Below are positions 52,833 to 61,631 of a stretch of 64,000 nt of DNA, piece by piece. A program made the translations under genes and the position numbers. Source of the DNA: Fluviicola sp. XM-24bin1 (GTDB lineage Bacteria > Bacteroidota > Bacteroidia > Flavobacteriales_D > Crocinitomicaceae); assembly GCA_003149635.1 (NCBI GenBank), contig QCWI01000004.1, positions 230,500 through 294,499 of the forward strand. Direction: 5' to 3'. The notes under the pieces were generated by a model that was not told where the DNA came from, did no database searches, and saw nothing but the letters and a program-made list of their open reading frames with translations. Numbering within the stretch: the first letter of the stretch is position 1; each line of letters starts with the position of its first letter.

Positions 52833-53912
52833 CTATCCTTTCCTCGTCTTCGGATTCATAATCTTCGTCTGGTGACGAATCGATTCCTGGTGAATCGCAT
52901 CCATCACCTGTCGTACAAATTGCTTCGTAAGGTGCAATTCATCCGCTTGATCCAAGCGCATAGAAATGATTTTCGCCCAGTGCTTTTGCTGGAGAATGGT
53001 AATGTTATTCTCGCGTTTCAGCAATCCCACTTCTTCGCTGAGTTGCATGCGGGCACTCAACAATTCCAACATACGATCATCCAAAATCGCCACTTTCTCG
53101 CGCAATTCATTAATCTGCTCTGCAACGTCCGATCCAAATTCAGGAGCACGTACTACCAATTGATCTAGGATATTTTTCAATCCCTCGGCAGTTACTTGCT
53201 GCGCAGCATCCGACCAAGCATTGTCAGGATCTGGGTGCGTTTCAATCATCAATCCATGGAAACTCAAATCCAATGCTTTTTGACTGACTTCCAAGAGCAA
53301 ATCACGGCGACCGGTAATGTGACTTGGATCGCAAATGATTGGAATATCCGGACGATTTTCCTTCAACGCAATCGGGATTTCCCAACTCGGAACGTTGCGG
53401 TATTTGTCGTGTTTGTACACGGAAAATCCTCGGTGAATTGCTGTCAAATCCGTAATGCCTACTTTCTCAAATCGTTCGAAAGCTCCCAACCACAAAGCCA
53501 AGTCCGGATTAATAGGATTTTTAATCATCACCGGCGTATCCGTTCCTTTCAAAGCATCGGCAATTTCTTGAACCGCAAACGGATTTACCGTCGTTCTTGC
53601 TCCGATCCACAAAACATCAATTCCCGCTTTCAACGCAGCCTCAACGTGCGCTTTGTTGGCTACTTCTGTAGTGGTTTGAAGACCTGTCAATTTCCCGGCT
53701 TCCACCAACCACGGCAATGCCTCTTCACCCAATCCTTCGAAAGAATCAGGACGTGTTCTCGGCTTCCAAATTCCCGCTCGCAACAGTTGCACATTGTCAT
53801 TTTTCGCAATGTCTGTGCAAATGGAAATTACCTGTTCACGCGATTCGGCACTACATGGCCCAGCCACTACAAATGAGCGGTTGGATTGATTGATTTTGTC
53901 GGCTAATCTCAT
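52833..53912 (-). CDS. bifunctional 3-deoxy-7-phosphoheptulonate synthase / chorismate mutase (AroQ type)
   Basis: FVVAGPCSAES; LWIGARTTVNPFAVQEI; CDPSHITGRRDLL; C-terminal chorismate mutase (INELREKVAILDDRMLELLSARMQLSEEVGLLKRENN). Confidence 0.94.
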   Translation of the reverse strand: MRLADKINQSNRSFVVAGPCSAESREQVISICTDIAKNDNVQLLRAGIWKPRTRPDSFEGLGEEALPWLVEAGKLTGLQTTTEVANKAHVEAALKAGIDVLWIGARTTVNPFAVQEIADALKGTDTPVMIKNPINPDLALWLGAFERFEKVGITDLTAIHRGFSVYKHDKYRNVPSWEIPIALKENRPDIPIICDPSHITGRRDLLLEVSQKALDLSFHGLMIETHPDPDNAWSDAAQQVTAEGLKNILDQLVVRAPEFGSDVAEQINELREKVAILDDRMLELLSARMQLSEEVGLLKRENNITILQQKHWAKIISMRLDQADELHLTKQFVRQVMDAIHQESIRHQTKIMNPKTRKG

Positions 53913-53921
53913 CTTATTAAA

Positions 53922-53957
53922 TCAAAAAACCCGCTTCAGTCAGTGACCGAACGGGTT
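53922..53957 (-). terminator. putative attenuator terminator upstream of DAHP synthase/chorismate mutase
   Basis: On - strand AACCCGTTCGGTCACTGACTGAAGCGGGTT then TTTT (T-tract overlaps stem end); 6-bp GC-rich base plus internal GAA/TTC and GTC/GAC pairs; ends ~10 nt before ATG. Confidence 0.75.
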
Positions 53958-53990
53958 GTTATTTTTTATTTCATACAACACTCAAACGGC

Positions 53991-54038
53991 CTAAACTAGG
54001 TCGTTCCAGAACCACTTGTATGTGTTGGTTGTAATCAT
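53991..54038 (-). CDS. putative aromatic amino acid leader peptide MITTNTYKWFWNDLV
   Basis: 15-codon ORF with Tyr, Trp, Phe, Trp codons directly upstream of a terminator hairpin and the DAHP synthase gene. Confidence 0.75.
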   Translation of the reverse strand: MITTNTYKWFWNDLV

Positions 54039-54076
54039 TTACATCACAAAGGGAAAAAAAATATTTCAATTGACGT

Positions 54077-54108
54077 TTGATTTTTACAAAAATAATTTCA
54101 GACCTTTG
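54077..54108 (+). promoter_or_regulatory. putative promoter of trp leader
   Basis: TTTG-N21-GACCTTTG; -7-like element ends 5 nt before the leader ATG. Confidence 0.4.
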
Positions 54109-54113
54109 TAGAG

Positions 54114-54194
54114 ATGAATACAACATCACATATCAACACGACAGAACAAAATTGGTGGTGGAGCACAACTCTTCGATGGTGTGCCTGGCGTTAG
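54114..54194 (+). CDS. trpL: trp operon leader peptide MNTTSHINTTEQNWWWSTTLRWCAWR
   Basis: 26-aa ORF with three consecutive Trp codons plus two more; followed by a hairpin with T-tract and trpE. Confidence 0.9.
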   Translation: MNTTSHINTTEQNWWWSTTLRWCAWR

Positions 54195-54216
54195 TATATG
54201 TAGATCTTAAATATTG

Positions 54217-54251
54217 AAACGACTTGTCACATCTGGCAGGTCGTTTTTTTT
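54217..54251 (+). terminator. trp attenuator terminator
   Basis: AACGACTTG-tcacatctgg-CAGGTCGTT (one G.U) followed by 8-T tract (54244-54251). Confidence 0.88.
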
Positions 54252-54269: not shown

Positions 54270-55703
54270 ATGATTTATTCAAAAACCCGCAGGTTTAACG
54301 CGGACACACATACCCCGGTACAACTGTACCTTCAGCTCAGACATCACTTCCGAAATTGTTGTCTACTGGAAAGTAACGATTACCATTCCCGACAGGACAG
54401 CCGTTCGTTCATTGGGTTCGATCCATTAGTATCAATTGAGTTGAAAGACGGTCAATTCGAGATAAAGGAGAATGGGGAAATCAAAACTATTCCAGTAAAT
54501 GAGTCAAAAGAGAACAGTGCACTTCGACAAGCTCAGCGTACTGTCTCTTTGACAGACCAAGTTCAAAATCTCCTCGATGAATACACGTTCGAACATCCTG
54601 AATACAACGGTTTTTTCGGACGAATGAGCTTCGAGTTTACGCATCAAGACGAAACACATATTACCAGCGAATCTTCTCAATCTGACATTCCTCTTTTGCA
54701 CTTATTTCTGTTTCGCTACGTGATTGTGATCGATCACTTTACCAACGAAGGAATTCTCCTTGAAAACAGCCTCTCCCAAGATTTTAAAGGATTAACGATG
54801 GATTCCATCATGCGACTTCCTGCTCCATCCATTCTGCCTTTCGAGACTGTTGGAAACGAAACTTCATCACTCAGCGATCTTGAATTTTCAAATCTGGTAA
54901 TTAAAGGAATCGATCATTGCAAACGTGGTGATGTATTTCAGTTGGTGCTTTCAAATGCTTTCCAACAAACATATTTCGGAGATGATTTTCACGTGTATCG
55001 ACAACTGCGCCGTACCAATCCATCACCTTACCTTTTCTATTTTGATTTTGAATCCTACCGATTGTTTGGATCTTCTCCCGAAGCACAAACAGTCGTAAAA
55101 AATGGAAAGGTGGAAATTCATCCGATTGCCGGAACGGTTCCTAAAACGGGGGAAGATGAAATCGATGCGGAACAGCTCGAATTCCTCAAGAAAGATGAAA
55201 AAGAAAATGCAGAACACACTATGTTGGTAGACTTGGCTCGAAATGATTTGAGTCGCAACTGTACCGATGTTCAGATCGAAGCCTATAAGGAGATTCAACA
55301 TTTCAGTCATGTGATTCATTTGGTCTCGAAAGTGACTGGAAAGTGCGATTCTGATGATACTTTCAAAACGATCAGCCAAGCATTTCCAGCCGGCACCTTA
55401 TCGGGAACTCCCAAGCCAAGAGCGATGGAATTGATTCACGATTATGAAAAACAACCGCGTGGATTCTACGGTGGCGCTATCGGAATGCTTCAACCGAACG
55501 GAGATGCAAACATGGCCATCGTGATACGCAGCATTCTGAGCAAGGAAAATCAATTGAACTATCAAGCCGGAGCTGGAATCGTTTTGGATTCCGATCCCGA
55601 GCGAGAAACACAGGAAGTTCATCACAAGCTAAGAGCTGTCCGCGAAGCCATTCGAAAGGCGCATAGCTTTCAATCGGAAACTGAAAAAACTACGGCATCA
55701 TGA
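54270..55703 (+). CDS. trpE: anthranilate synthase component I
   Basis: PSPYLFYFDF..LFGSSPEAQT; HPIAGTVPKTG; FPAGTLSGTPKPRAMELI; GGAIGMLQPNGDANMAIVIRS. Confidence 0.95.
   Translation: MIYSKTRRFNADTHTPVQLYLQLRHHFRNCCLLESNDYHSRQDSRSFIGFDPLVSIELKDGQFEIKENGEIKTIPVNESKENSALRQAQRTVSLTDQVQNLLDEYTFEHPEYNGFFGRMSFEFTHQDETHITSESSQSDIPLLHLFLFRYVIVIDHFTNEGILLENSLSQDFKGLTMDSIMRLPAPSILPFETVGNETSSLSDLEFSNLVIKGIDHCKRGDVFQLVLSNAFQQTYFGDDFHVYRQLRRTNPSPYLFYFDFESYRLFGSSPEAQTVVKNGKVEIHPIAGTVPKTGEDEIDAEQLEFLKKDEKENAEHTMLVDLARNDLSRNCTDVQIEAYKEIQHFSHVIHLVSKVTGKCDSDDTFKTISQAFPAGTLSGTPKPRAMELIHDYEKQPRGFYGGAIGMLQPNGDANMAIVIRSILSKENQLNYQAGAGIVLDSDPERETQEVHHKLRAVREAIRKAHSFQSETEKTTAS
54509..54550. repeat. dispersed palindromic repeat inserted in frame within trpE
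   Basis: AGAGAACAGTGCACTTCGACAAGCTCAGCGTACTGTCTCT; arms ACAGT/ACTGT and AGAG/CTCT; antisense reads STLSLSKCTV. Confidence 0.75.
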
Positions 55704-56284
55704 AAATTGCAGTCATCAATAATTTCGATTCGTTCGTGTTCAATTTGGTTCGATACCTCAAAGAAACGGGATGCGAAGTCATCGTGCAGCGAAACGATCA
55801 AGTAGATTTCGAAGAACTAGATACTTGCGATGGAATCCTGCTGTCACCCGGCCCGGGAATCCCATCGGAGGCAGGAGCATTGATGGACGTCATCCGTCAT
55901 TTTGCAATGAAAAAACCAATTCTCGGTGTTTGTCTCGGACATCAGGCCTTAGCAGAACATTTCGGGGGGGCGCTCGCATTGGCGAAAATTCCCATGCACG
56001 GGAAGTCATCAAAGATTCAAAGACTGAACGATTCGAAGATTTTAAACGACATCCCGGAATCCTTCGAAGTGGGTCGATATCATAGTTGGATCGCAGAATT
56101 ACCGCTTCCCGAATCTTTAAAAATCACAGCTTCCTTTGAAAATGAAATCATGGCTTTTGAACACAGAGAATTGCCTGTTTTCGGAGTGCAGTTTCACCCG
56201 GAATCCATTCTCACGCCAGAGGGGCGAACAATGATTCAGAATTATGTCAATGTTGTCAAACATTCAATCCCAGTAACGATATGA
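55700..56284 (+). CDS. trpG: anthranilate synthase component II (glutamine amidotransferase)
   Basis: LLSPGPGIPSEAG; GVCLGHQALAE; GVQFHPESILT. Confidence 0.95.
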   Translation: MKIAVINNFDSFVFNLVRYLKETGCEVIVQRNDQVDFEELDTCDGILLSPGPGIPSEAGALMDVIRHFAMKKPILGVCLGHQALAEHFGGALALAKIPMHGKSSKIQRLNDSKILNDIPESFEVGRYHSWIAELPLPESLKITASFENEIMAFEHRELPVFGVQFHPESILTPEGRTMIQNYVNVVKHSIPVTI

Positions 56285-57258
56285 AACGATTTTTAGAAAC
56301 TATAATGGACAAGGAGTATTTCTCCAAAGCGACCGCCGCTGAGTTCATTCATGCCATTGGCGAAGACGCAGTCTCCGATGCAGAAATCGCGGCCATTCTA
56401 TCAGGAATTCAATTCCGTGGAGTATCCTTGGAAGAATTGGATGGATTCCGTGAAGCCTTGTTAGAACGGGCAACGAAACCAGAAATTGACAGCGAAAATT
56501 GCATCGATGTGTGTGGGACGGGAGGCGATGGAAAAGATACCTTCAACATCTCTACGACCTCAGCTCTGGTGCTCGCAGCTATGGGATATAAAGTGATCAA
56601 ACATGGAAACTACGGTGTAAGTTCAAGTTGTGGTTCCTCTAATGTTTTGGAATCTCTAGGATTTCGATTTACCACAGACAATAAAGAATTTGAAGCAGAT
56701 TTACGTCAAAACAACATTTGTTTTCTGCATGCTCCCCTTTTCCATCCGACTCTGAAAAAAGTGGCACCGGTAAGAAAGCAATTGGGTGTACGGACGATCT
56801 TCAACAGTCTTGGGCCGCTAGTAAATCCTGTGCAGCCTTCTTTTCAATTGACCGGAACGTATTCCTTGGAACTGGCTAAAATGTATCAGCATGTATTACG
56901 CCAGAATCGAAAGGCTTTTTCGGTTGTGTACGCCATGGATGGTTATGACGAAATCACGCTCACAGATGCAACGCGCTTGCTAGCGAACAACAACGATTCC
57001 ATCGTTTCTGCGGCTAGTTTTGGAAAGAATACTGTGAATCCTGACCATTTAAAATCAGGTGGAACGATCGACAAAGCCGCTGAAATTCTAACGGCAATTG
57101 CAAATGGAAATGGAACCGAGGCACAGACGAATGTGGTAGCGGCGAACGTGGCGACAGCCATTCAGACAATCCAATCCGGAACGACACTCAAAGATGCCTT
57201 TGACGAAGCACAACAATTCATTCGAAGCGGACAAACCGCAAAACACTTTAAAATTTGA
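56281..57258 (+). CDS. trpD: anthranilate phosphoribosyltransferase
   Basis: DVCGTGGDGKDTFNISTTSALVLAAMGYKVIKHGNYGVSSSCGSSNVLE. Confidence 0.96.
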   Translation: MKRFLETIMDKEYFSKATAAEFIHAIGEDAVSDAEIAAILSGIQFRGVSLEELDGFREALLERATKPEIDSENCIDVCGTGGDGKDTFNISTTSALVLAAMGYKVIKHGNYGVSSSCGSSNVLESLGFRFTTDNKEFEADLRQNNICFLHAPLFHPTLKKVAPVRKQLGVRTIFNSLGPLVNPVQPSFQLTGTYSLELAKMYQHVLRQNRKAFSVVYAMDGYDEITLTDATRLLANNNDSIVSAASFGKNTVNPDHLKSGGTIDKAAEILTAIANGNGTEAQTNVVAANVATAIQTIQSGTTLKDAFDEAQQFIRSGQTAKHFKI

Positions 57259-57292
57259 CTTGACTCATTATTCAATATTCCTTATTCCTATT

Positions 57293-58078
57293 ATGATGAA
57301 AACAATACTTGACAAAATAGCAGAGAACAAAAGGCAAGAAATTGCAGTGCTGAAATCGAAATATAAACTTTCGGATTTCGAATCCATGCTCTTTTTTCAC
57401 CAAGAAACGCGATCGCTTTCGAACGCAATCCAACAACAAGAGTTCGGCATTATCGCAGAATTCAAACGAAAATCGCCAAGCGCTGGCGATATCCGAATGG
57501 CAGCTGATCCCTTAGATGTGGTTGCCAATTATCAAAAGGCTGGAGCAGCTGCGATCTCGTGCCTCACGGATACAGCATATTTCGGTGGAAGTATGCGTGA
57601 TTTGGAAATCATCCGCGAGTTTACGAAGCTTCCTGTTTTGCGCAAAGATTTTATTATCGACGAAATCCAGTTGTTTGAAGCGAAAGCACATGGCGCCGAC
57701 GCTGTTTTGTTGATTTCCGAATTGCTCGATCCCGAACACGCGAAACAATTGACCATCATTGCGCAATCTCTAGGAATGGAAGTTTTGATGGAAGCGCACG
57801 ATCGCGCGCACCTCGAAAAAATTAATGATTTGGTAGATGTCATCGGAATCAACAATCGCGACTTGCACGCACAGAAAACGGATATCGAAACGTCGATTCA
57901 ACTCTTCGATTATCTACCCAAAGATCGTCTGTGTATTTCAGAATCTGGAGTAAAAGCAGCTGCCGATTTAGAAAGATTGCAAGCGACGGGATATCATGGT
58001 GCTTTGGTCGGAGAAAGCTTATTGAAGACAGATAATCCAGCAAGTCTCATTTCAAAAACGCCTGTTCCATGTTCGTAA
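57293..58078 (+). CDS. trpC: indole-3-glycerol phosphate synthase
   Basis: IIAEFKRKSPSAGDI; VLRKDFIIDEIQLFEAKAHGADAVLLI; IGINNRDL. Confidence 0.95.
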   Translation: MMKTILDKIAENKRQEIAVLKSKYKLSDFESMLFFHQETRSLSNAIQQQEFGIIAEFKRKSPSAGDIRMAADPLDVVANYQKAGAAAISCLTDTAYFGGSMRDLEIIREFTKLPVLRKDFIIDEIQLFEAKAHGADAVLLISELLDPEHAKQLTIIAQSLGMEVLMEAHDRAHLEKINDLVDVIGINNRDLHAQKTDIETSIQLFDYLPKDRLCISESGVKAAADLERLQATGYHGALVGESLLKTDNPASLISKTPVPCS

Positions 58079-58665
58079 AAGTTTGTGGCATCACCACCCC
58101 TCAACAAGCACATGAGATTTCACAATTAGTGGATTACGTGGGGTTCATTTTCCATCCGGGATCGCCGCGATTCGTTTCGCAATCGTATCCTTCGATGAAA
58201 GCCAAAAAAGTAGGCGTGCTTGTGAATGTACCCCTGCAAGAACTCATTCAAACAGCACTTTTGGAAAAATTAGACTCTGTACAATTGCATGGAAGTGAAT
58301 CTCCTGAATACTGCGCGGCAATGAAAGAACAAGTACAAGTGATCAAAAGTTTTGGCGTAGATGCTGATTTTGATTTTGATCAATTAAAAGCCTACGAACC
58401 TTACGTCGATTATTTCTTGTTCGATACAAAAACACCCAAGCATGGTGGCTCAGGGAAACAATTCGATTGGCGCTTGTTGAAACAATATCAAGGTGCTACT
58501 CCCTTCATTTTATCCGGTGGACTGCGCCCAGAATCCCTACCTCAAATTCAAGAGGTTAATCATCCCAAATTGACTGGAATTGATCTCAACAGCGGTTTTG
58601 AAACACAGCCCGGAATTAAAAATTTGCTCTTATTAAAACAGTTTCTCCATGATTTCCACAATTGA
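58069..58665 (+). CDS. trpF: phosphoribosylanthranilate isomerase
   Basis: [46 protein letters not shown]. Confidence 0.95.
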
Positions 58666-59845
58666 CTACAAACAACCCGATGAGCTCGGTTTCTATGGTG
58701 ATTTCGGTGGCGCTTTCATCCCAGAATTGTTGCGTCCGAACGTAGAAGAACTCAACAATGCATTCCTTGCGATGCGGGACAATGCAACGTTCCAAGAAGA
58801 GTTCCAAGATTTACTTCGCAATTACGTGGGGCGCCCCTCCCCTCTATATTATTCCCAATATTTAAGCGAGACCTACGGCGCCAAGATTTACTTGAAACGA
58901 GAAGATTTAAATCACACTGGATCTCATAAAATCAACAATGCACTGGGTCAAATTCTATTGGCGCAACGCATGAACAAGCGCAAAATCATTGCGGAAACTG
59001 GAGCGGGACAGCACGGAGTTGCGACAGCTACAGCCTGCGCCTTGCTCAAGATGGAATGCATCGTATTCATGGGAGAAAAAGATATGGAGCGTCAGGCGCC
59101 AAACGTTCAACGGATGCGCATGTTAGGTGCAACCGTTATCGCTGCGACAAGTGGCAGTAAAACGCTCAAAGACGCAACGAACGAGGCTATCCGATATTGG
59201 ATCAATAATCCCGATGCATATTACCTCATCGGTAGTGTTGTTGGGCCGCATCCATATCCAGAAATGGTGGCCTACTTTCAATCGGTAATTAGCCAAGAAA
59301 TTCGATCTCAACTTATCGAAAAAGAAGGAAAAAGTGTCCCGGATAAAGTCATCGCTTGTGTTGGAGGAGGAAGCAATGCCGCTGGTGCGTTCCATCATTT
59401 TTATTGCGAATCAACGGAATTAATCGCGGTGGAAGCAGGAGGAATGGGAGTGGATTCAGGGAAGTCAGCGGCAACCTCAGCTCTAGGAATCGACGGCGTT
59501 CTTCATGGAAGTAAAACAATTCTCATGCAAGACGAAGATGGACAGGTCGTGGAACCGCATTCCATCTCAGCCGGATTGGACTATCCAGGGATTGGCCCGG
59601 AGCACGCGAACGCCATTCGAAAAGAGCGAACCTTGGCCATCAATGTTACCGATCAAGAAGCCGTTGATGCCGCTTTCGAGTTGACACGGAACGAAGGAAT
59701 AATTCCCGCATTGGAAAGCGCTCATGCTATTGCAACCTTGAAGAAAATCAATTTTAAATCGGATGAAATCGTTGTGATCAATCTATCGGGTCGTGGCGAC
59801 AAAGACATGTCCACTTATCAAAAACATTATGAATCCATTTCGTAA
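58649..59845 (+). CDS. trpB: tryptophan synthase beta subunit
   Basis: [42 protein letters not shown]. Confidence 0.97.
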
Positions 59846-60587
59846 AAACAACAAGCAACTGAGCATTTTTGTGACTGCGGGATTTCCGGAATTGAACGCA
59901 TTACCTTCTCAAATTGAATTTTCACAATCAAAAGGTATCGACTTTATCGAAGTTGGAATTCCCTTCTCCGATCCTATGGCGGACGGCCCTACAATTCAAG
60001 AATCCAGTGAAATTGCATTGAAAAATGGAATGAACGTGGGATTGATGTTTGAGCAATTAGCAACTGTAAATGTGAACATTCCTTTGGTGATCATGAGCTA
60101 TTTCAATCCGATCATGCATTACGGTTTGGAGCGCTTTCTGAAGCAATGCAAAAGCTGCGGAATTGCCCATGTGATTCTCCCAGACATCAGCATGGAAGTG
60201 TATAAGAAGCTGTATCGAACAACTTTTGAGAAATATGGTGTGACGCTGTGTTTCCTGATTACTCCAAGCACTTCCTCCGACCGAATATCGAAGATGAGCT
60301 CCTTGAGTTCGAATGGATTCTTGTACTTGGTTTCATCGAACATGACAACAGGGAATTCAGTGAAGAGTGCGAGTGTGAGTGAGGAGGATGTAAAGCGAAT
60401 TCGGGAAGCAGCGGGTGATACTCCAATGATGATTGGTTTTGGTATTAAATCGCGGGGAGACGTTCTCGAAGCACAAAAAAATGCAGATGGTGCCATCATC
60501 GGTTCTGCCTACATTCGCGCCTTATCGGAAGGGCGTCAGGAGGAATTTATTTCGAGCGTTTCGTCGCCTGAACTACAAAATCTTTGA
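59829..60587 (+). CDS. trpA: tryptophan synthase alpha subunit
   Basis: [42 protein letters not shown]; start moved to [11 protein letters not shown]. Confidence 0.95.
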
Positions 60588-61221
60588 GGTAGAAAGGTTC
60601 CCAGTACGCGACATCTTCGAAAGACTTGTTCTGAAATTTTTCGAACGCCAAACGGATTTGTCCCGACGCTGACGATTTAATAGTAAAATCTGCCTCAAGA
60701 TTACGATTTGCCCATAATTCCGACAATTTTGCAGCGCCATCACCGAAATACACAAACGGTGCAAATTCGGAATAGCTCTCTTCTTCGAGGACATCGGCAG
60801 AGATCTCTTTGATAGTTTGACCATCACCGTTTTGAATCAATGCGAAGACTTCCATTCTACGTGCATCGATCAACGCGCACAAATTTTGTTGAGGATGTTT
60901 CGCTCTGGCAATTTCGCACAAGCTAGTCAAGGCATCAACAGCGATCAATGGAATATTCAATGCGTAACACAATCCTTTGGCGGTTGCCGCCCCGATGCGT
61001 AATCCAGTGTATGAACCCGGGCCAGAAGCAACAGACACGGCATCTAAATCTTTCATCGAAAGACCCGCTTTCTGAATCAATTCTTGAATGATGAGCGTGA
61101 GGTTTTCGCCGTGAGAATATCCTACTTCCTCAATTTCCTTTAAGGCGATTTGTTCTCCGTCGCGCGAGAGGGCTACCGAACAAACTTTGGTAGCTGTTTC
61201 AAGATGTAAAAGGATGGCCAT
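60547..61221 (-). CDS. tsaB: tRNA threonylcarbamoyladenosine biosynthesis protein TsaB
   Basis: LHLETATKVCSVALSRDG; VASGPGSYTGLRIGAATAKGLCYAL; start moved to MAILLHLE. Confidence 0.92.
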   Translation of the reverse strand: MAILLHLETATKVCSVALSRDGEQIALKEIEEVGYSHGENLTLIIQELIQKAGLSMKDLDAVSVASGPGSYTGLRIGAATAKGLCYALNIPLIAVDALTSLCEIARAKHPQQNLCALIDARRMEVFALIQNGDGQTIKEISADVLEEESYSEFAPFVYFGDGAAKLSELWANRNLEADFTIKSSASGQIRLAFEKFQNKSFEDVAYWEPFYLKDFVVQATKRSK

Positions 61222-61631
61222 TAAATGTCTTTCTCCACGTGTTTTGGATTGTCCCAATCGTTCAGTTTGACACAGTAATCATGCTCCATATTGAATTTCT
61301 TACCGAGCGTTTGAGCACTAAGCAACCCTTTCTTCCAGACGTAGGCCAAATCGATTTTCTCGTACGTGTACTCATCAGCGCCTTCTTCCTCGTACATGAT
61401 TTCCACTTCCCAGTAATTTTCATACCCAGTATATACGGCTTGCGCCTCAACTACGGTCACTTTCTTAGGTTCAACTAAACTACAACAACCGCAGAACAAA
61501 TAGATCGTTTTCCCTTTGTTCAGGTATGCTGCCACTTCCTCCGCTTTCTCTTTGGAGATATACGCCAATTGATCCGCCTGAGCAAAACTCACGACTCCAA
61601 GGAACAAGGCCAATAGAATACTTTTCATCAC
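61221..61631 (-). CDS. hypothetical exported protein with CGCC motif
   Basis: Signal peptide; IYLFCGCCSLVEPKKVTVVEAQ. Confidence 0.65.
   Translation of the reverse strand: MMKSILLALFLGVVSFAQADQLAYISKEKAEEVAAYLNKGKTIYLFCGCCSLVEPKKVTVVEAQAVYTGYENYWEVEIMYEEEGADEYTYEKIDLAYVWKKGLLSAQTLGKKFNMEHDYCVKLNDWDNPKHVEKDI

Follow-up and report, generated by a model that had tools for sequence, protein, structure and literature searches.

Ribosome-mediated attenuation is known from the classical trp mechanism. The trp attenuator of Escherichia coli (trpL, Rfam RF00513) combines a leader with Trp codons, alternative 1:2, 2:3 and 3:4 hairpins and an intrinsic terminator before trpE, features which the locus described here shares. 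The same organism assigns its DAHP synthase (DAHPS) isozymes to branches by TrpR, TyrR and allostery, the Trp-linked DAHPS (AroH) being under TrpR control. In Bacteroidota, where initiation does not rely on Shine-Dalgarno sequences and promoters are unusual, ribosome-mediated attenuation has to our knowledge hardly been described. According to Naville and Gautheret (2010), known leader-peptide systems were confined to Proteobacteria and Actinobacteria until the Firmicutes case that they reported (PMC2965389). In Corynebacterium glutamicum, the aroF leader reads Phe-Tyr-Phe and a separate trpE leader reads WWW (PMC4046766), and a transcriptome account of Flavobacterium psychrophilum describes leader peptides ahead of amino acid operons and reports structured 5' elements for pheA and hisG (PMC9723704). 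Here we analyse a divergent DAHPS/trp control region of Fluviicola sp. XM-24bin1, located in a stretch of 64,000 nucleotides (hereafter the window), which we consider likely to hold two separate divergent ribosome-mediated attenuators, both reading charged tRNA-Trp, one acting on trpEGDCFBA and the other on a DAHPS gene assigned to Trp.

Anatomy and predicted switching of the divergent leaders

The region between the trpEGDCFBA operon (plus strand, 54270..60587, trpE ATG at 54270) and the trp-linked isozyme gene encoding a fusion of type I-beta DAHP synthase and chorismate mutase (DAHPS-CM; minus strand, 52833..53912, ATG at 53912) contains a leader ORF on each strand; the two diverge, and a strong intrinsic terminator follows each of them. 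The DAHPS-CM product matched NCBIfam models for DAHPS at residues 6-252 and for chorismate mutase at residues 265-350, all below the curated cut-offs, and a search of solved structures matched its DAHPS domain only. The best matches of the trpE and trpG products were the TrpE and glutamine amidotransferase families, and the remaining genes of the operon were named by translation and gene order. On the minus strand, the DAHPS leader ORF MITTNTYKWFWNDLV (53991..54038, ATG at 54038, stop ending at 53991) carries Tyr7, Trp9, Phe10 and Trp11 within 15 codons and is followed by a terminator at 53922..53957 (stem-loop 53928-53957 plus T-tract, -16.6 kcal/mol). On the plus strand, the trp leader ORF MNTTSHINTTEQNWWWSTTLRWCAWR (54114..54194, ATG at 54114, stop ending at 54194) is followed by a terminator at 54216..54251 (hairpin 54216-54247 plus T8, -17.8 kcal/mol, z -6.8). 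The sequence thus bears out the order of leader ORF, hairpin with T-tract and structural gene that the original prediction had proposed for both strands, and the start codons at 54038 (minus) and 54114 (plus), which it had placed about 75 bp apart, are separated by 75 bp. When the 358-bp region was shuffled 2000 times with its dinucleotides preserved, no shuffle gave a Trp leader with a terminator on either strand, nor on both, and a chance origin of the twin layout is excluded. Scanned against Rfam to E = 1, the region and its surroundings returned no known riboregulator, with neither Trp_leader (RF00513) nor the T-box model matching around the leaders; a single snoRNA match was set aside as chance.

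Folding of each leader RNA, ending at the terminator loop, was repeated with a ribosome footprint on one codon after another. Without a ribosome, folding predicted a 1:2 (pause/protector) hairpin in the DAHPS leader (53972..54022, minus strand) and a 1:2 structure in the trp leader (54128..54201, plus strand). With the ribosome stalled at Trp9/Trp11, constrained folding predicted a 2:3 antiterminator in the DAHPS leader (53945..53991, minus strand), and the 2:3 antiterminator predicted in the same way for the trp leader (54178..54233, plus strand) pairs leader GGUGUG with terminator CACAUC. A ribosome at the stop codon was predicted to block such pairing of region 2 with the terminator 5' arm. 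In constrained folding of the DAHPS leader of the window, sequestration of the terminator 5' arm was 0.73 with the ribosome at Trp and 0.35 with the ribosome at the stop; the mean values were 0.70 versus 0.53 for plus-strand and 0.63 versus 0.36 for minus-strand leaders, with the Trp position giving the higher value in 27 of 36 plus-strand and 26 of 34 minus-strand leaders and the stop position in 1 and 2, respectively. Compared with shuffled spacers, the stall effect was on average positive in all nine genera on the plus strand and in six of eight on the minus strand, and for the window alone it was modest (p 0.14 plus, p 0.06 minus). The predicted antiterminator, which would exclude the terminator and be favoured by stalling at Trp, is therefore clear across relatives and weak for the window alone. 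Co-folding of the leader RNAs, which had been suggested as a check, thus yielded in silico the alternative folds expected for attenuation.

In the mechanism we propose, each promoter would start a transcript at or a few nucleotides before the leader AUG. When Trp-tRNA is ample, the ribosome would reach the leader stop and cover region 2, and the terminator would form ahead of the structural gene; when it is scarce, the ribosome would stall at the Trp codons, region 2 would pair with the terminator 5' arm and polymerase would read through. In the absence of a ribosome the 1:2 hairpin would form. As one attenuator would act on trpEGDCFBA and the other on the Trp DAHPS, the first step of the shikimate pathway would rise together with the Trp branch.

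Conservation and promoter spacing

We compared 34 genomes of the window's genus (Flavobacteriales), fifteen of which have a true trpE, adjoined in all fifteen by a divergent DAHPS gene; in the family, trpE was present in 54 of 200 genomes. Conservation was assessed in 37 regions with divergent DAHPS and trpE, drawn from some nine genera that include Fluviicola; many of the regions are closely related, so that the counts are non-independent (33 distinct trpE and 32 distinct DAHPS leader peptides). The trpE-side Trp leader and terminator were kept in 37/37 regions and the DAHPS leader and terminator in 34/37, three regions lacking the DAHPS leader; the GTG-start trpE leaders of L150 and L151 were identified by eye, as was the plus-strand terminator of L042, which the terminator finder had missed. 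The divergent pair with two leaders, whose conservation had been put forward for survey, is thus retained in relatives. Moreover, double-sided compensatory changes were found at 7 of 11 consensus pairs of the trp-leader terminator (17 relatives) and at 9 of 11 of the DAHPS-leader terminator (14 relatives). As Trp leaders precede trpE also in other Flavobacteriales families that have DAHPS elsewhere, the trpE attenuator is the wider and probably the older of the pair. In addition, two attenuators in tandem, both complete with leader and terminator, were seen ahead of one operon at trpE in L188 and L169 and at prephenate dehydratase in L178, L179 and L224. A His leader MITTQLHHHHSNTCTQASVE (HHHH) with a terminator of -18.4 kcal/mol precedes hisG on another contig of the window genome (C5; L226, reverse complement 1193-1282), which extends putative attenuation in this genome beyond the aromatic genes.

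A sigma-70 promoter scan gave nothing above chance, as expected for Bacteroidota. Putative -7 boxes of consensus TAnnTTTG were identified upstream of both leaders: TCCCTTTG on the DAHPS side (54047..54054, minus strand) and GACCTTTG on the trp side (54101..54108, plus strand). No -33 element could be assigned to the minus promoter, and only the -7 boxes are claimed. Among the DAHPS leaders, 29 of 34 have a TTTG ending 4-10 nt ahead of the start codon; among the trpE leaders, it stands at 4-6 nt in 23 of 36 and at 4-10 nt in 29 of 36. The start sites were placed by the box-spacing rule of F. psychrophilum, whose -7 box spans -12 to -5 (PMC9723704); hence the predicted starts fall near 54113, 1 nt upstream of the trpE leader AUG, and near 54042, 4 nt upstream of the DAHPS leader AUG. 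Both leader mRNAs are therefore probably near-leaderless; leaderless mRNAs are rare in F. psychrophilum (5.5%; PMC9723704).

The -7 boxes are 61-63 bp apart in most members of the window's genus and of one related genus, and 76-226 bp apart in the remaining members and genera, some of them of the window's own genus. Since both leaders are kept at the wider spacings, compactness is not required for twin leaders, and tight promoter packing, as judged by these comparisons, is a lineage trait. Such packing would make the polymerases compete. One could regard the region as a single bidirectional module with overlapping promoters, polymerase exclusion or a common regulator, in which the coupling itself has been selected. 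A distance of 61-63 bp between the boxes, shared by almost every compact member of the two genera and about the minimum for two back-to-back promoters without overlap of their core elements, speaks for such a module; however, spacings of 81-226 bp occur together with both leaders in other genera and in part of the window's genus, no shared operator was identified, and coupling through Trp-tRNA already accounts for co-regulation. We consider the single module unlikely, and a shared signal, charged tRNA-Trp, offers a simpler reading of the coupling than overlapping promoters.

Amino acid signal and proposed branch assignment of DAHPS

Codon enrichment was computed against the base composition of the same regions. 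The Trp enrichment was 18.8-fold for trpE leaders and 12.0-fold for DAHPS leaders, and every distinct leader of both kinds contains Trp; with leaders in 37 of 37 regions, the Trp control proposed for the trpE side is supported. The original prediction had assigned general aromatic control to DAHPS-CM, and this was not supported. Trp is the sole aromatic residue common to all 32 distinct DAHPS leaders, 24 of which have two Trp inside three codons, while Phe (1.3-fold) is barely and Tyr (0.6-fold) not enriched. Of the aromatic codons in the window's minus leader, only those for Trp are conserved among relatives, Phe10 being replaced by Leu in the nearest relative; the conserved signal is therefore Trp.

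A DAHPS leader sensing Phe, Tyr and Trp, next to a trpE leader that alone is Trp-specific, would nevertheless be in line with the position of Tyr7 and Phe10, where stalling would free the antiterminator, and with the presence of Phe or Tyr in 25 of the 32 distinct DAHPS leaders. It would also suit genome G096 (L167 / L225), in which a trp-clade DAHPS and prephenate dehydratase share one operon divergent from trpE, with a Phe/Tyr/Trp leader MTTLNNNFYFFWYVPITR (FYFFWY) back-to-back with a Trp leader; here a mixed leader accompanies a mixed operon, so that leader codons follow operon content. The gene content of the window genome argues against general sensing. Prephenate dehydratase (PF00800) is absent from it and from 30 of the 34 genus genomes, and none of the 34, the window genome among them, has prephenate dehydrogenase (PF02153); control searches matched in all 14 reference genomes. 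Judged by these families, the organism would make no Phe or Tyr, and DAHPS induction on shortage of either would be futile. Thus we regard general aromatic sensing as quite improbable, the conserved signal being Trp, and a lesser response to Phe or Tyr is possible through the permissive stretch in which many DAHPS leaders carry these residues (Tyr7 and Phe10 here). That the short ORFs are untranslated and the hairpins ordinary or protein-controlled terminators (TRAP-like or T-box-like) is highly improbable, given the conserved in-frame Trp codons, the conserved short length, the start codons a few nucleotides after the -7 box and the Rfam scan to E = 1 without a T-box or other riboregulator.

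As chorismate synthase is present in the window genome and the two prephenate enzymes are absent, chorismate would go to Trp and presumably also to folate and menaquinone. The DAHPS-chorismate mutase fusion itself is retained in the genus despite the absence of the dehydratase in 30/34 and of the dehydrogenase in 34/34 genomes. Relatives keeping the Phe branch usually have a second DAHPS beside prephenate dehydratase and a Phe-rich leader: four genus members retain the dehydratase, three of them with a second DAHPS nearby and the fourth (G003, a fragmented assembly) with no DAHPS adjoining, and a Phe-rich leader with a terminator was found at 24 of 27 prephenate dehydratase loci of the family (e.g. 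MIINNNFFFFFNHFKF; Phe 3.9-fold enriched). That Phe-rich leaders belong to a different DAHPS isozyme further speaks against general aromatic control of DAHPS-CM. In a quick DAHPS tree that carries long-branch warnings, above all for G173 and for two members of the genus, the trpE-adjoining genes lie in one clade that includes the window gene and in which trp-less genus members are nested, and most of those next to prephenate dehydratase belong to another clade. Leader codons thus appear to assign DAHPS isozymes to branches, the window gene being the Trp-assigned isozyme, and in Phe-branch relatives the second DAHPS, placed in the prephenate dehydratase operon behind a Phe-rich leader, would be matched to its own end product. 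The combined proposal that leader codons define the DAHPS branch (Trp-type, Phe-type or mixed) and that the twin attenuators of the compact genera form one bidirectional switch with mutually influencing promoters is tentative and, on balance, doubtful.

Among twelve genus DAHPS genes that are not beside a trp operon, eleven have neither leader nor terminator; the exception, in G012, belongs to a sister of a trp-bearing genome. In the window, tsaB (60547-61257) follows trpA, and it directly adjoins DAHPS in eight trp-less relatives (L009, L010, L013, L017, L022, L023, L026 and L028), a placement which suggests repeated excision of the trp segment. Loss of the DAHPS leader together with trp fits a Trp-only role, and a plain deletion of the whole segment would also explain it; a paired sign test that set the loss of the leader against that of trp had little power (5 independent pairs) and did not reach significance (median p 0.125). 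The analysis shows the anatomy and its conservation, the Trp enrichment, the covariation of the terminators, the logic of the folds and the gene content, and from it we infer translation of the leaders, their start sites and their response to Trp. The twin leaders are real and conserved, and they very probably function as two Trp attenuators.

Relation to known attenuation systems

The twin attenuators present a deeply conserved and directly testable case of attenuation in Bacteroidota, for which relatives that have repeatedly lost the trp operon or the Phe branch offer natural comparisons. It also points to a way in which DAHP synthase isozymes could be allotted to branches where obvious aromatic repressors are lacking, namely through the amino acid that each leader encodes. 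In the same order, F. psychrophilum shows clues of leader-peptide attenuation at amino acid operons, and the accessible part of that account, unlike the present analysis, contains neither a divergent DAHPS/trpE pair nor isozyme-specific leaders (PMC9723704). Searches of the open-access literature for divergent pairs of attenuators gave no case, and neither such twins nor leaders specific to one isozyme were seen described there for Bacteroidota. The divergent attenuator pair, the isozyme-specific leader code and the breadth in Flavobacteriales appear to be new. The nearest precedent for the DAHPS attenuator is the aroF leader of C. glutamicum, which is not known to be back-to-back with the trp leader. 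That system likewise has DAHPS behind an aromatic-codon leader and a separate Trp leader on trpE (PMC4046766), but it belongs to a different phylum and its aroF leader reads Phe/Tyr, whereas the conserved signal of the DAHPS leader described here is Trp. Compared with E. coli trpL, the Fluviicola system has no Rfam match, is predicted to be near-leaderless, has no Shine-Dalgarno sequence and has a second Trp attenuator as its counterpart ahead of the divergent DAHPS gene.
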